DNA from: Patescibacteria group bacterium
Lineage (GTDB): Bacteria > Patescibacteriota > Microgenomatia > Levybacterales > UBA12049
Direction of reading: 5' to 3'
Assembly: GCA_023485865.1 (NCBI GenBank)
Contig: JAMCZC010000031.1
Location: 1 to 38,393 of the forward strand
Length of the DNA stretch: 38,393 nucleotides
The position numbers and the translations under genes are program-made. Numbering within the stretch: position 1 is the stretch's first letter; every line of letters starts with the position of its first letter. Shown in pieces: positions 547 through 34,209 of this stretch. The notes under the pieces are model-generated. The model had not been told where the DNA came from. It did no database searches and saw only the letters and a list, made by a program, of their open reading frames with translations.

Positions 547-588
547 AGCTTTAGATTAACACATTAACATTATAATTCAATGAGGAAT

Positions 589-908: not shown

Positions 909-945
909 TTGACAAAGTCTAGCATCGATACTATACTTTGTCAAG
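909..945. promoter_or_regulatory. Divergent HxlR operator/promoter: inverted repeat CTTGACAAAGT / ACTTTGTCAAG with TTGACA-N17-TATACT on the + strand
   Basis: TTGACA 909-914, 17-nt spacer, TATACT 932-937; the mirror TTGACA-N17-TAGACT reads on the minus strand. Confidence 0.75.
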
Positions 946-946
946 T

Positions 947-1492
947 ATGGATAAACTTAAAATATTAGGAGTGGGAGGAAGTTTAAGAAAAGGCTCATTC
1001 AGCAAAGGACTTCTTTTAGAGGTTAAGAAACTTGCTCCTGAAAATGTGGATTTTGAAATTTGGGAAGATTATAATTTTCCTCCGTATAATCCCGATACTG
1101 AAATTCCTGAAAACGTAAAAGAGCTTAAAAATAAAATTAAAAACGCCGATGCAATACTTTTCTCATTGCCTGAGTATAATTATTCTGTCCCGGGCTTTAT
1201 AAAGAATGCTATTGACTGGGCATCAAGACCTTATGGAGATAATTCCTGGGAAGATAAGCCGGCAGCAATTATGAGTGAGTCTATAGGAAATACGGCGGGG
1301 TCTAAAGCACAATATCATTTGAGACAAGTATTAGTCTGTCTTAATGTTCATGCGCTAAACAAACCCGAATTTATGGTACCGAATGCTACAGATAAATTTG
1401 ATAAAGAAGGAAATTTAATAGACGAAGAAGCAAGAGGGAAAATTAAACCGCTCATTGAAGCTCTTGTAGCTTGGACTAACAAATTAAAATAG
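947..1492 (+). CDS. NADPH-dependent FMN reductase family protein
   Basis: GVGGSLRKGSFSKGLL flavin-binding motif, LPEYNYSVPGFIKNAIDWASRP; ATG 947 preferred over TTG 938. Confidence 0.88.
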   Translation: MDKLKILGVGGSLRKGSFSKGLLLEVKKLAPENVDFEIWEDYNFPPYNPDTEIPENVKELKNKIKNADAILFSLPEYNYSVPGFIKNAIDWASRPYGDNSWEDKPAAIMSESIGNTAGSKAQYHLRQVLVCLNVHALNKPEFMVPNATDKFDKEGNLIDEEARGKIKPLIEALVAWTNKLK

Positions 1493-1529
1493 TTTTGACA
1501 TTTTTCCTCTTACATATTATCATTTGATT

Positions 1530-2018
1530 ATGAAAACAATTCTCCGTTTTCTTTTGGAAAAGTTAATCGTTGAGAAAATAGCTTATGCCCACTGCGACAT
1601 CCCGTGCGGAATATACGACCCTCACAACGCGCAAATGGCAGCTCATACGATAATTCGTATGACACAACTTTTGGGAGAAGTTAAAAGAGACAGTGAAACA
1701 AAAGCGGAGCACGATATTTCAAGAATAACTCATGTTAAAGAGCATCATGCGGATATTCTTGAAGAAGAGTTGGATACCCTAAGGAATGATTATTTTAAAG
1801 AAGAGCATTACAAAGAATATCCGAATCTTAATGAACTTTTTGTAAAAACTCTAAAGGCAAGCGCAAAAGCCAGGCAGGGAATCGATATGGAAGCTGCTGA
1901 AAGTACATTGGCCGGAGCACAGGAAATCGCCGAAATCTTTTTCAAAACCAAAGGGGTTGAGTCTGTCAGAGTAAAAACGGTCTATCCCACAGGCGGAGAA
2001 ATTGTTCTTCATAAATAA
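1530..2018 (+). CDS. sodN: Nickel-dependent superoxide dismutase precursor
   Basis: Ni-hook motif HCDIPCGIYDP preceded by a ~20-aa propeptide; ATG 1530 preferred over 1524, which lies between the -10 box and the start. Confidence 0.9.
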   Translation: MKTILRFLLEKLIVEKIAYAHCDIPCGIYDPHNAQMAAHTIIRMTQLLGEVKRDSETKAEHDISRITHVKEHHADILEEELDTLRNDYFKEEHYKEYPNLNELFVKTLKASAKARQGIDMEAAESTLAGAQEIAEIFFKTKGVESVRVKTVYPTGGEIVLHK

Positions 2019-2308
2019 TGCTTCTTTTAAAAAAATTCAGAATTCGCGGCCACAGCATGGAACCTTTTATAAAAAATAACTCTATAGTTTTTGCTAGCGG
2101 AATTCCTTACTTATTTAAAAATCCCAAGGTAAATGATATTGTTGTTTTTAAAGATAAAGAGGGGAAAACTTTGATAAAAAGAATAACAAGGAACAAAAAA
2201 GATAGATATTTTGTTGCGGGGGATAATAAGGGCGATAGCCTGGATAGCAGGCAGTTAGGAGATATCTCAAAAAGGCAAGTTATTGGTAAAGTAATCTATA
2301 AATTATAA
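2018..2308 (+). CDS. sodX: S26-family peptidase, NiSOD maturation protease-like
   Basis: RIRGHSMEP Ser motif and TLIKRI Lys motif; start overlaps sodN stop (TAATG). Confidence 0.85.
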   Translation: MLLLKKFRIRGHSMEPFIKNNSIVFASGIPYLFKNPKVNDIVVFKDKEGKTLIKRITRNKKDRYFVAGDNKGDSLDSRQLGDISKRQVIGKVIYKL

Positions 2309-5617: not shown

Positions 5618-6419
5618 AATTTATACCTTCAATAAATTTATTATATTTTCTCTCGAGATAAAGATTAGTATCTTTATACATATAAGCGAAGAGTTTAAAC
5701 GCTGACTTTTGTCCCAAGTTAATACGATAATAAGGTGTTTTTTGATCCTCCATAGCTATTATTATTTTTCCATTATACGAGTTCTTAAGGAGTTGTTTAA
5801 TTCTCCGATATAGAAATTCACTCATAGGCTGACTGGCGGTATAAAAATCTACGACTAGCTTGCTTTTATAGGATATATTTCGAAGAGAAACTGAGCCATC
5901 TCCGTCAAAATACCCCCTTATAAAGTGTCTAATCAAATTTTTAGGAATTTTTGGAGGAGTAAATGTTAGGCTTTTTCTTTCAGTAATACCTAATTTTATA
6001 AGATCATTAAAAATTACTTGATCACATATACGTATACTGTAAGATATTTTACCGTTGTCTCGTACTTTCTGATGGATTGGGCCCTCATAACTCAAAATCG
6101 ACTTTATTTTCTCAACAACGTCTTTGTCATCACAGGCAATATGTAGAGTATGTCCCCTTCCACTGCGACAAACATTCCCGTCTGCTCCAATAAATCCCAA
6201 AACATAAGCCATCTCCGGCGACCAAATCTTAAAGAAATTTGAATTTACTTTGTATTTTTTTATTTTTGCCTGGATAGGTAGATACCTAATCTTAGATTGA
6301 ATTGAATTGGGAGAACGATGAATGATAACCCCCATTTGTTTATAGGTCATTTTGCTAATATTCTCATTTAAAAACTCAATTTCTTCAATTGTCCATGGAT
6401 GGGTATGTTGATTTGACAC
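5607..6419 (-). CDS. Freestanding LAGLIDADG homing endonuclease with N-terminal HTH
   Basis: Paired motifs AYVLGFIGADGNV and RHFIRGYFDGDGSVS; GTG start; N-terminal HTH/SANT-like TIEEIEFLNENISKMTYKQMGVIIHRSPNSIQSKI. Confidence 0.88.
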   Translation of the reverse strand: MSNQHTHPWTIEEIEFLNENISKMTYKQMGVIIHRSPNSIQSKIRYLPIQAKIKKYKVNSNFFKIWSPEMAYVLGFIGADGNVCRSGRGHTLHIACDDKDVVEKIKSILSYEGPIHQKVRDNGKISYSIRICDQVIFNDLIKLGITERKSLTFTPPKIPKNLIRHFIRGYFDGDGSVSLRNISYKSKLVVDFYTASQPMSEFLYRRIKQLLKNSYNGKIIIAMEDQKTPYYRINLGQKSAFKLFAYMYKDTNLYLERKYNKFIEGINYGN

Positions 6420-6596
6420 TATAGTATTATAACAAAGCTGCGAGGGAAATTAAATATTCCTGGTTTGATTTAATGGTACCTATACCCTGAAGACAAGTAA
6501 GCATACTTAGGCTCAAGTTTTGATCGCGGAGGCAATATTCCTTAAGTATTTATCACAAGAAAATATTGTAACTGTGAGAAATTCTTACGTATTGCT

Positions 6597-15944: not shown

Positions 15945-15953
15945 AGCAAGTTT

Positions 15954-15982
15954 AGTCTAGGGGTTTTTTATGCTTTTGTCAA
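15954..15982 (-). promoter_or_regulatory. Promoter of pil operon TTGACA-N17-TAGACT
   Basis: Minus strand: -35 at 15982-15977, -10 at 15959-15954, ATG at 15944 (9-nt gap). Confidence 0.7.
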
Positions 15983-16317: not shown

Positions 16318-16359
16318 CGGAACATTTTACCATGTTATACTTATAAAAACAATAACTTT

Positions 16360-29366: not shown

Positions 29367-30161
29367 TTAAATTCTGAAAATAGCCTTCGCGTTTGCGGTA
29401 GTTACTTTATCAACTTCATCAAAAGATACACCCTTAATTTTGGCAATGGAGCTAGCCGTAATTATAGCATAAGAAGGTTCATTTCTGCTACCTCTGTGGG
29501 GTTTAGGAGTAAGATAGGGAGCATCCGTTTCAACCACAATCCTATCAAGCGGAGCATATTCAACAAGTTCGCTTAGTTTTGTATCTTCTCCCGGAGCCAA
29601 ACCCTCGTAGGTGATGTTTCCGTCAAAACCAACGTAAAAACCAAAACCCAAAATTCTTTTTAGATAATCAATATTTCCGGCCAAGCAATGAAACATTCCG
29701 GGAGGCGTTTGGAAGCTGGTTCTGTATTCAGTCAATATTTGGATAATATCATCTGACGCATGCCTCCCATGGATTTGTAACGGGAGCTTAAGTCTAATAG
29801 AAAGCTCAATCTGTTTTACGAAAATTTCTTTTTGGAGTTTTGGGTCGACAATGCCGTTAGATTTATAACTGAAATAATCAATTCCCACTTCGCCAATTGC
29901 TACGACTTTTTCTTCTCTTGCCAATTTTTCAATATCTTTTATCCAGTCTCCTTCTACTTTATCCGCATGGTGGGGATGAATTCCTACAATTGCATATAAG
30001 TTTTCATATTCCTTAGCCAATTCAACTGCTCTAAGACTAGTTTCAATGCTTGTTCCGACATTAATTATTTTATTAACACCCGCATCTAATGCTTTTTTTA
30101 TCACTTCATCATAGTCGTTTTTGAAAGCGTTAAAGTTTAAGTGGCAATGGGTGTCTATCAT
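29367..30161 (-). CDS. tatD: TatD-family hydrolase
   Basis: MIDTHCHLNF, VGIHPHHA, AIGEVGIDY, QIHGRHA, VETDAPYLTPKPHRG; ATG 30161 preferred over the long ORF start. Confidence 0.92.
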   Translation of the reverse strand: MIDTHCHLNFNAFKNDYDEVIKKALDAGVNKIINVGTSIETSLRAVELAKEYENLYAIVGIHPHHADKVEGDWIKDIEKLAREEKVVAIGEVGIDYFSYKSNGIVDPKLQKEIFVKQIELSIRLKLPLQIHGRHASDDIIQILTEYRTSFQTPPGMFHCLAGNIDYLKRILGFGFYVGFDGNITYEGLAPGEDTKLSELVEYAPLDRIVVETDAPYLTPKPHRGSRNEPSYAIITASSIAKIKGVSFDEVDKVTTANAKAIFRI

Positions 30162-30191
30162 CTTAAACATTATATCAGTAGGGACGGTGTA

Positions 30192-30291: not shown

Positions 30292-30942
30292 TTAATATCC
30301 GTTGTTTTGACTTTTTAAGGCGTTTTCGCATGCAGCTTTCGCGCTGGGGTCTGTAATTCCCGCGCAGGAAAATCCGGCGCCTCCGGTTGTCGGTGCTCCC
30401 GATGTTTTGGGCATCATAGCAGATATGTCGGTAAACTTAACATTTGCCGGCGGGGCAAAAAGAGAAGAATCAACAATCCAGGGAGAACATTTGTAATCGG
30501 CTTTTTCATTGGGATTAAAATATTGTCCGGTCTTGGTATCGGAAGCAAAATCTTTCTCAGGTACAGTCATTTTTATTCCTTGGGGAATAGCAGAGCCCCA
30601 AATGTAGTTTGTATCCCCATTTCTTATCATACTGATGTTTTGTTTTTTCCCTTCAACCGTTGTGGTTATATCTCCCCTGAGTTTTCCGGCCGAAACATAT
30701 AAAACGCCGCTACTTTCTGTAGATTCCACTTTCATGTCAAAAGTACATTTCTGAGAAATTCCGGAAGAAAGGATATCCATAAACGACTTTGCGGCATTTT
30801 CCTGTTTTTGAGTAGCGGGGGTAGCATTGGTAGCTTGATTTCCTGTTTTTGAAGATTTTGAAAGCGTTAAGTAAGCAGCTCCTCCCAAAAGGGCAAGAAT
30901 TACTGCTGCGGCGACAACAACTAATGTTTTATTCTTAAACAT
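30292..30942 (-). CDS. Secreted/membrane-anchored hypothetical protein
   Basis: MFKNKTLVVVAAAVILALLGGAAYLTLS anchor, conserved-looking paired Cys, Gly-rich tail. Confidence 0.65.
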   Translation of the reverse strand: MFKNKTLVVVAAAVILALLGGAAYLTLSKSSKTGNQATNATPATQKQENAAKSFMDILSSGISQKCTFDMKVESTESSGVLYVSAGKLRGDITTTVEGKKQNISMIRNGDTNYIWGSAIPQGIKMTVPEKDFASDTKTGQYFNPNEKADYKCSPWIVDSSLFAPPANVKFTDISAMMPKTSGAPTTGGAGFSCAGITDPSAKAACENALKSQNNGY

Positions 30943-31019
30943 TAAAAGGAGTATAGACCCAAATTTTTGTCCAGTCAAGAGTTAAATTTTAAAAAATTGT
31001 CAGGATTAAGACAGGAGAA

Positions 31020-32231: not shown

Positions 32232-33671
32232 CTAAATTCTTGGGAAAAGGGGAGCGGCCGATTTTATTTCCGAAGCTTCAAACTGCCGTAGTATTTTCTC
32301 ACTGGTTTCGGGCAAAAAAGGCCCCAGCAAATTCGCAATTTCCTGGATTTGGTCAACGGAATGTTCTAAAACACTTTTCAGTCTGGGGTTATTATTTTTA
32401 GCCAGCTCCCAGGGTTTTTCATCGTTTATAAATTTATCGAGCCTTGTAATTTTTCCCCAGATAATTCCTAGCGCATCATTAAACTTGTATTCCTCCAAGG
32501 CTTTTTTATAATCCTCATCAAAATTGGAAACGTGTTTTTGGTTTTCTACGGTTTTGGTTTTTGTATAATTTGCGTTTTCGCAAAGTTTGGCAACCCTTGA
32601 AATTAAATTGCCTAGGCCGTTAGCTAAATCGGAATTGTAAACTTCAATTAATTTTTTTTCGGAAAAATCCCCGTCGCCTGTTGGAGAAATATCATGCAAG
32701 AGGTAATATCTTAAGCCATCGGCAGTATATTTTTCTATAAATTCCAAAGGGTCTGCAACGTTCCCCAAAGATTTGGACATTTTTTGCCCGTCAACGGTAA
32801 AATATCCGTGAACAAATAAGGCTTTTGGTAATTTTAACCCTGCGGAAAGTAAAAATGCGGGCCAGTAAACAGCATGAAACCTGATTATGCCCTTTCCGAT
32901 TACATGTAAATCGGCGGGCCACCATTTTTGGTATTCTTTTTGGTTGCTATAAAATCCGACGCCGCTTTGATAAATATTTAAAGCGTCAAACCAGACATAC
33001 ATTCTCTGCGTATCGTCATTTGGAACTTTTACTCCCCAGTTTTTCGCGCGTTTGTTGCTCCTGGAAATACTGATATCCCTTAACCCCTCTTTTAAAAGTC
33101 CTAAAACTTCATTTTTCCTAAGCCTTGGAATTATCAGAAGTTTGTCTTTTTCTATTAATTCTCTAATTTGTTTTTCGTATTTTGAAAGACGGAAAAAATA
33201 ATTTTCCTCGCTTACTTCCTCCAAAGGCTTTCCGGGGTGCTCAAAACATTCACCGTTTTTGTTCAGTTCATTTTTTTCGTAAAAAAGCTCACAGCCGGTG
33301 CAGTAAAGCCCTTTATATGCCTTTTTATATATATCGTGTTTGCAAAGTTCCCATAATTTTTGAGAAGCAGAATGATGTTTTGTATCACTTCCTCTTTGGA
33401 AAACATCAAACCGGATGTTTAATTTTTCTGCCAACTCCTCAAAAAGTTTGGAATTTTTATCGATAAGCTCCCCGACAGCTACGCCCGTATTTTCCGCGGC
33501 CTGGACATTTTTAATTGCATTTTCGTCCGCTCCCGACAAAAGTAAAACATCATCTCCTTGAGATTTTCGGTACCTTTTTATGACGTCTGCCTGGACAAAT
33601 TCCAATGCGTGTCCAATGTGGGGCCTGGCATTTACATAAGGGATAGCTGTTGTTAAATAAAATTTGTTCAT
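32232..33671 (-). CDS. metG: Methionyl-tRNA synthetase
   Basis: TTAIPYVNARPHIGHALEFVQADV, YCTGCELFYEKNEL, FVHGYFTVDGQKMSKSLGN. Confidence 0.96.
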   Translation of the reverse strand: MNKFYLTTAIPYVNARPHIGHALEFVQADVIKRYRKSQGDDVLLLSGADENAIKNVQAAENTGVAVGELIDKNSKLFEELAEKLNIRFDVFQRGSDTKHHSASQKLWELCKHDIYKKAYKGLYCTGCELFYEKNELNKNGECFEHPGKPLEEVSEENYFFRLSKYEKQIRELIEKDKLLIIPRLRKNEVLGLLKEGLRDISISRSNKRAKNWGVKVPNDDTQRMYVWFDALNIYQSGVGFYSNQKEYQKWWPADLHVIGKGIIRFHAVYWPAFLLSAGLKLPKALFVHGYFTVDGQKMSKSLGNVADPLEFIEKYTADGLRYYLLHDISPTGDGDFSEKKLIEVYNSDLANGLGNLISRVAKLCENANYTKTKTVENQKHVSNFDEDYKKALEEYKFNDALGIIWGKITRLDKFINDEKPWELAKNNNPRLKSVLEHSVDQIQEIANLLGPFLPETSEKILRQFEASEIKSAAPLFPRI

Positions 33672-33685
33672 GAGGGGATTGTAGC

Positions 33686-34018
33686 TTATTTTCGCTTTGC
33701 AAACAATAATTCAAGCATTGCCAAAAGAATCAGAAGCAGGATTATAAAAAACGGATGGGTTAAGTTTATTAACTTTAAAATAAAATATCCCAAAATAAAA
33801 ACAGCAACCAAAAACCCTCTGCGTTTATTGTTCAGCAAAAAAGCAACAAGAGAAAATATAAATAAAAAAACTAGGACCAAAACAATCGGCAAAATCTGAA
33901 ATCTGAAATCTGAAATCATAAATCCGTAGGTGGGTGGAAAGTTCAAAACCAAATAAATAAGCACTGCTACCGACAATAAACCAAGAACCAATAGCCGTAG
34001 TGGTCTTTTCCTCCGCAT
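33686..34018 (-). CDS. Small polytopic membrane protein
   Basis: Hydrophobic ORF directly upstream of metG. Confidence 0.5.
   Translation of the reverse strand: MRRKRPLRLLVLGLLSVAVLIYLVLNFPPTYGFMISDFRFQILPIVLVLVFLFIFSLVAFLLNNKRRGFLVAVFILGYFILKLINLTHPFFIILLLILLAMLELLFAKRK
33893..33920. repeat. Heptamer array (AATCTGA)x3 AATCATA inside small membrane ORF
   Basis: Direct reading; encodes MISDFRFQI. Confidence 0.85.
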
Positions 34019-34173: not shown

Positions 34174-34202
34174 TTGCAAATATTGCAATTATGTGTTATA
34201 AT
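34174..34202 (+). promoter_or_regulatory. Promoter TTGCAA-N17-TATAAT of the ATPase island
   Basis: -35 34174-34179, -10 34197-34202, ATG 34210. Confidence 0.65.
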
Positions 34203-34209
34203 ACTAGGT

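Follow-up and report, generated by a model that had tools for sequence, protein, structure and literature searches.

Start-adjacent promoters suggest leaderless or near-leaderless mRNAs for sodN and other first genes in Levybacteria and many other CPR bacteria

Leaderless genes are a known type in Deinococcota and Actinobacteria, and they seem to be undescribed in the CPR/Patescibacteria. Mycobacteria, for which leaderless transcriptomes have been mapped, are a high-GC lineage. A large fraction of their mRNAs begins at the start codon and, as is likely in the genome described here, normal SD machinery operates beside the leaderless mRNAs, which in mycobacteria were mapped experimentally (PMC3898074, PMC4633059). 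In Deinococcus-Thermus, leaderless genes with a ‘-10 region adjacent to ORF’ have been shown experimentally and account for about 30% of ORFs (PMC12340547). The layout that we describe is similar in that the -10 box stands directly before the start codon, is widespread and coexists with RBS-type genes; it differs in being documented by sequence evidence alone, in belonging to reduced CPR genomes and in usually having a recognisable TTGAC -35 box. The text of that report makes no mention of Patescibacteria. Zheng et al. (2011) recognised leaderless, TA-led genes by a TANNNT box some 12 bp ahead of the start codon; such genes are widespread but not dominant in bacteria and exceed 20% in the richest phyla (PMC3160421). 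The promoters found here likewise place a TANNNT box just before the start codon. Candidate phyla are not mentioned in the text of that survey (953 bacterial genomes, 2010). Little SD use has been reported for the CPR lineages Absconditabacteria, Wolfebacteria, Campbellbacteria and Peregrinibacteria, and such SD-scarce CPR were placed in a class without a conserved CCUCC anti-SD (PMC10783764); here, in contrast, relatives retain an intact anti-SD, and the alternative signal can be named: a start-adjacent promoter. A full-text literature search, with many subscription journals outside its scope, found no report of leaderless mRNAs in CPR/Patescibacteria.

The window, by which we mean the whole 38,393-nt stretch of DNA that was analysed, is contig 19 of a 680-kb assembly in 41 contigs. 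It carries a gene for nickel superoxide dismutase, sodN, which is identified by its conserved HCxxPCG nickel hook (HCDIPCG) at the N terminus of the mature protein and by an adjacent S26 peptidase gene:

1495..1500, plus strand: sodN -35 box TTGACA; TTGAC at 17-nt spacing is kept before sodN in most close relatives
1518..1523, plus strand: sodN -10 box TATCAT; 6 nt from the ATG in many relatives
1524–1529, plus strand: TTGATT, the spacer between the -10 box and the ATG at 1530
1530..2018, plus strand: sodN (Pfam Sod_Ni, E = 1.9e-33), with its ATG at the predicted +1
2018..2308, plus strand: sodX-type S26 signal-peptidase-like gene (Pfam Peptidase_S26)

The arrangement TTGACA-N17-TATCAT-TTGATT-ATG with a 6-nt gap, as given in the first-pass annotation, matches the sequence at 1495–1532 exactly. 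The two near-consensus hexamers are 17 nt apart, within the 16–18 nt of a sigma-70-type promoter, and the position of the -10 box would put +1 at the start codon or a few nucleotides from it. The start codon itself is anchored by HCDIPCG about 20 codons in, and alignment shows the equivalent codon in relatives. Inspection of the sequence 5–10 nt ahead of the sodN start found no SD motif, and an Rfam search of the whole window returned no match and hence no sign of a known riboswitch or leader RNA. A longer transcript could also include sodN through readthrough from the FMN reductase gene. The ATG of the sodX-type gene overlaps the sodN stop codon (TAATG, 2018), which makes this gene operon-internal with, as read from the sequence, an overlap-coupled start.

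Similar promoters precede other genes in the window (the gap is the number of nucleotides between the -10 box and the start codon; scores are in bits for the -35 and -10 boxes jointly):

909..946, plus strand: FMN reductase promoter TTGACA-N17-TATACT, 9 nt to ATG 947
947..1492, plus strand: NADPH-dependent FMN reductase gene (Pfam FMN_red)
547..580, minus strand: promoter of a DUF1003 gene (Pfam DUF1003), TTGAAT-N16-TAATCT, 6 nt to ATG 546; weak, score 6.9
6420..6454, minus strand: promoter of a LAGLIDADG gene (Pfam LAGLIDADG_3), TTTAAT-N17-TATAAT, 6 nt to GTG 6419; score 8.0
15945..15982, minus strand: promoter of a pilN-like gene, TTGACA-N17-TAGACT, 9 nt to ATG 15944; score 13.1
16318..16352, minus strand: rpsT promoter TTGTTT-N17-TAAAAT, 6 nt to ATG 16317; from the sequence and the promoter scan
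30162..30174, minus strand: tatD -10 box TATAAT, 7 nt to ATG 30161; from the sequence
30943..30978, minus strand: promoter of a gene without assigned function, TTGACT-N17-TATACT, 7 nt to ATG 30942; score 12.8
33672..33706, minus strand: promoter of the methionyl-tRNA synthetase gene (metG), TTGTTT-N17-TACAAT, 6 nt to ATG 33671; score 7.9
34174..34209, plus strand: promoter of a 72-aa ORF, TTGCAA-N17-TATAAT, 7 nt to ATG 34210; score 11.7

The first-pass annotation had assigned one and the same geometry to sodN and seven of these genes, for the DUF1003 gene as a possibility. Close promoters are indeed present at all of them, although the gap is 6, 7 or 9 nt and not always 6: it is 6 at sodN, rpsT, the LAGLIDADG gene and, weakly, the DUF1003 gene, 7 at tatD and the 72-aa ORF, and 9 at the FMN reductase and pilN-like genes (the PilN Pfam match of the latter falls slightly under the cut-off). 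The methionyl-tRNA synthetase gene at 33671 and the gene at 30942 are two cases absent from that earlier list. A perfect 12-nt inverted repeat, ACTTGACAAAGT / ACTTTGTCAAGT (907–918 / 935–946), covers both promoter boxes (-35 and -10) of the FMN reductase gene and sits between this gene and a divergent HxlR-type regulator gene (589–888). The repeat is likely to be an operator, at which the HxlR-type regulator is predicted to block the near-leaderless FMN reductase promoter.

The genome sample comprised 322 kb, about half of the assembly, taken in stretches. Genes were called by a simple in-house caller that uses coding potential only and ignores upstream signals; -35 and -10 boxes were scored jointly with a threshold of at least 7.5 bits, every nearby ATG or GTG was admitted as a start, and six equal windows further upstream (gaps 15–44) served as controls. 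Across the whole window, 10 of 23 first genes reach at least 7.5 bits at gaps of 5–9 nt, against a control mean of 1.2 (Poisson P ~5e-7). Among the transcription-unit-first genes of the 322-kb sample, 41 of 159 have a promoter at these gaps, compared with 3–10 in the controls (mean 7.0; Poisson P ~1e-18). The corresponding figure for operon-internal genes of the sample is 7 of 110 against a background of 1.7, and three relatives from the same family (stretches L063–L070) give 30 of 112 first genes against 4.0. As an SD-using control, 200 kb of Escherichia coli MG1655 treated identically gave 0 of 121 at gaps of 5–9 nt against 5.7, its promoters lying in the further windows; base composition is covered by the internal distance controls. 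Plasmid 2 of Deinococcus deserti was tried as a positive control and offered 18 first genes only, at high GC. One genome, G025, was left out, as its apparent GC of 14% looks like masked stretches.

The scan of -10-to-start distances proposed in the first-pass annotation reveals a genome-wide peak at 6–9 nt. When -10 matches alone are counted before first genes, one distance stands out, the 6-nt gap, with 23 of 159 genes; other distances have at most 11, and typically 1–5. The gaps of the best promoters of 271 first genes are distributed as 4 nt, 1; 5 nt, 1; 6 nt, 20; 7 nt, 11; 8 nt, 9; 9 nt, 14; and 10 nt, 0, followed by at most 5 per position. The lower edge at 6 nt is sharp; a shorter gap would put +1 inside the coding sequence, and the edge therefore agrees with what leaderless mRNAs or mRNAs with 1–3-nt leaders predict; gaps of 8–9 nt, which would leave a leader of 1–3 nt, account for 23 of the 54 genes in the 6–9-nt peak. 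At the strict threshold the excess amounts to roughly a fifth of first genes; this is a minimum, since genes with weak promoters or wrongly called starts drop out. From generic starting boxes, EM arrives at T-A-[TA]-A-A-T and a TTGACA-like box and puts 28% of first genes at gaps of 5–9 nt, compared with 5% in shuffled sequences; applied to operon-internal genes, it found no start-adjacent promoter motif. About three quarters of first genes are without a strong close promoter, and these may have leaders, weaker promoters or wrongly called starts.

Comparison between genomes shows that the geometry is conserved at sodN and rpsT in relatives. Most named relatives of the window sodN belong to ‘Candidatus Levybacteria/Levyibacteriota’ or to other Microgenomates, which makes the host a Levybacteria-like CPR (Patescibacteria) bacterium. 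Among 40 distinct CPR (Microgenomates) sodN genes, in which the start is fixed by the nickel-hook motif HCDxPCG some 20 codons downstream, a strong promoter precedes 27; the gap is 6–13 nt in 25 of these 27, and its mode is 6 nt (exactly 6 in 12 genes). The sodN genes of Woykebacteria (L135) and of L136 have AAGGAGG/AAAGGAG ahead of the ATG and no close promoter. Among 56 archaeal sodN genes and sodN genes of other bacteria, only five reach a comparable promoter score, and in each of these the gap is 30–37 nt. The 6-nt gap of rpsT is common to the genome itself and the family member L099, which has the same boxes but differs at three of the six positions that separate the -10 box from the ATG; rpsT in three further representatives of the class (L086, L089 and L105) has a GGAGG-type SD and -10-like boxes 24–27 nt upstream. 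The sodN and rpsT comparisons therefore indicate that one and the same gene can use either mode, depending on the lineage, even among relatives. CPR-like nickel superoxide dismutase genes are also frequent in DPANN and other archaeal MAGs (for example, L132–L189), which suggests extensive gene transfer or mis-binning.

The enrichment of start-adjacent promoters is broad in the CPR and not universal. Across 145 CPR genomes, TTGAC-N18-TANNNT-N6-ATG occurs 510 times, compared with 201 times for the same pattern with N16 and 59 times for a backward-read control. Gap-6 sites outnumber gap-16 sites in 95 of the 145 genomes and are outnumbered by them in 22. The ratio of gap-6 to gap-16 sites is 14:1, 10:0 and 11:4 in named Levybacteria genomes, 19:3 in a Microgenomates MAG and 1:1 in Woykebacteria; seven non-CPR bacterial genomes (~15.6 Mb, mostly of higher GC) total 18:11. 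Examples of CPR genomes with more gap-16 than gap-6 sites are G070, G108, G124, G142, G154 and G208, and several of the gap-16 matches among those listed have GGAG/GGAGG ahead of the ATG, pointing to SD-dominated lineages within the phylum. In G231, G232 and G238, leaderless-type promoters recur with a palindrome-like ATACCCCC...GGGTAT spacer (for example, TTGACATATACCCCCGTAGGGTATATCATACTTCAATG), which looks like a candidate operator for a metal or formaldehyde sensor (CsoR/FrmR-type) overlapping the promoter.

Chance is an exceedingly unlikely source of this pattern. TATAAT-like hexamers are common in AT-rich DNA, and at the GC content of 37–38% found here isolated -10-like hexamers are frequent at every distance; the distance controls nevertheless contradict this reading, and matches are also far fewer at in-gene ATGs, in shuffled sequences and with the backward-read pattern. 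It is very improbable, too, that real promoters are followed by normal leaders, with wrong start calls and true starts at later in-frame codons. Start calling without RBS signals is error-prone, and the LAGLIDADG gene does have an alternative ATG at 6350. However, protein families cover TatD, S20, MetRS and FMN reductase from residues 2–5: the Pfam TatD_DNase match begins at residue 2 if TatD starts at 30161, and the tRNA-synt_1g match at residue 5 of methionyl-tRNA synthetase (start 33671). The longest tatD ORF begins at TTG 30269 (minus strand); the promoter and the protein family both favour re-annotation of its start to ATG 30161. The sodN relatives begin at the equivalent codon, and the identical procedure yields no peak of this kind in E. 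coli.

We also consider it improbable that the A/T-rich box is a non-SD translation enhancer inside a real leader, a role proposed in Bacteroidetes, and not a promoter element. Bacteroidetes do have AT-rich upstream regions that lack an SD (PMC5397173), and the base before the start codon suggests that some translational preference exists too: T occupies -1 at about 50–55% of both first and operon-internal genes, compared with 31% of in-gene ATGs (own genome and family relatives), and this likeness between the two classes means that it is not solely a transcription-start preference. Against an enhancer, the box has a -35 partner at a distance of 17 nt, and a TTGACA-like -35 is retained by EM from generic boxes; the box is nearly absent at operon-internal genes, which likewise need translation signals; and the gaps are cut off abruptly below 6 nt.

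On the translation side, SD 5-mers precede 19% of operon-internal genes, 8% of first genes and 5% of in-gene ATGs. An SD 4-mer at -17 to -4 was found at 0 of 58 leaderless-type genes compared with 19% of internal genes, a difference that arises partly by construction because the -10 box fills this stretch. The anti-SD GGATCACCTCCTTTC is intact at the 16S 3′ ends of 15 relatives (the genome’s own 16S is absent from the assembly), and lineage-wide loss of the anti-SD was rejected on this ground. Nearly all relatives possess IF3 and bS21; loss of these factors was likewise rejected as a cause, and the translation machinery therefore gives no hint of special adaptation.

Promoter position and gene class together make it highly probable, in our judgement, that first genes are often leaderless or near-leaderless, that internal genes are coupled or SD-led and that sodN is one instance of this. 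The sodN site would be a housekeeping sigma-70-type promoter with its predicted +1 on the A of the ATG, giving a leaderless sodN mRNA, within a layout that appears to be genome- and lineage-wide in Levybacteria and many further CPR genomes. In a large share of transcription-unit-first genes the -10 box would lie 6–9 nt before the start and thus leave a leader of 0–3 nt; it is from promoter position that we infer the absence of a 5′ UTR. The 5′-terminal AUG of a leaderless mRNA is taken by the 70S ribosome, or by the 30S subunit with IF2 and initiator tRNA. Here, too, that AUG would presumably be recognised by a ribosome carrying initiator tRNA, and operon-internal genes would rely on overlap coupling and partly on SD pairing with the intact anti-SD. 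The first-pass proposal that leaderless initiation is a standard mode at first genes accords with the 6-nt edge, the conserved geometry at sodN and rpsT and the E. coli result of 0 of 121; its companion claim, that operon-internal genes keep overlaps or SD-like sequences, is supported by the near-absence of close promoters there, by the 19% with SD 5-mers and by the TAATG overlap. More tentatively, and with a little less than even confidence, we suggest that in Levybacteria and many CPR lineages leaderless or near-leaderless initiation is the main mode for first genes, with SD use largely operon-internal and lineage-wise switching of the kind seen at sodN and rpsT.

The CPR account for a very large share of bacterial diversity, and it is mostly SD-oriented tools that call their gene starts. 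If many CPR first genes are leaderless, promoter position should guide a revision of start annotations, and in expression tools for cultured CPR the promoter should be joined straight to the start codon. The presence of leaderless and SD-led versions of sodN and rpsT in related lineages would open the evolutionary exchange between these modes to direct tests.
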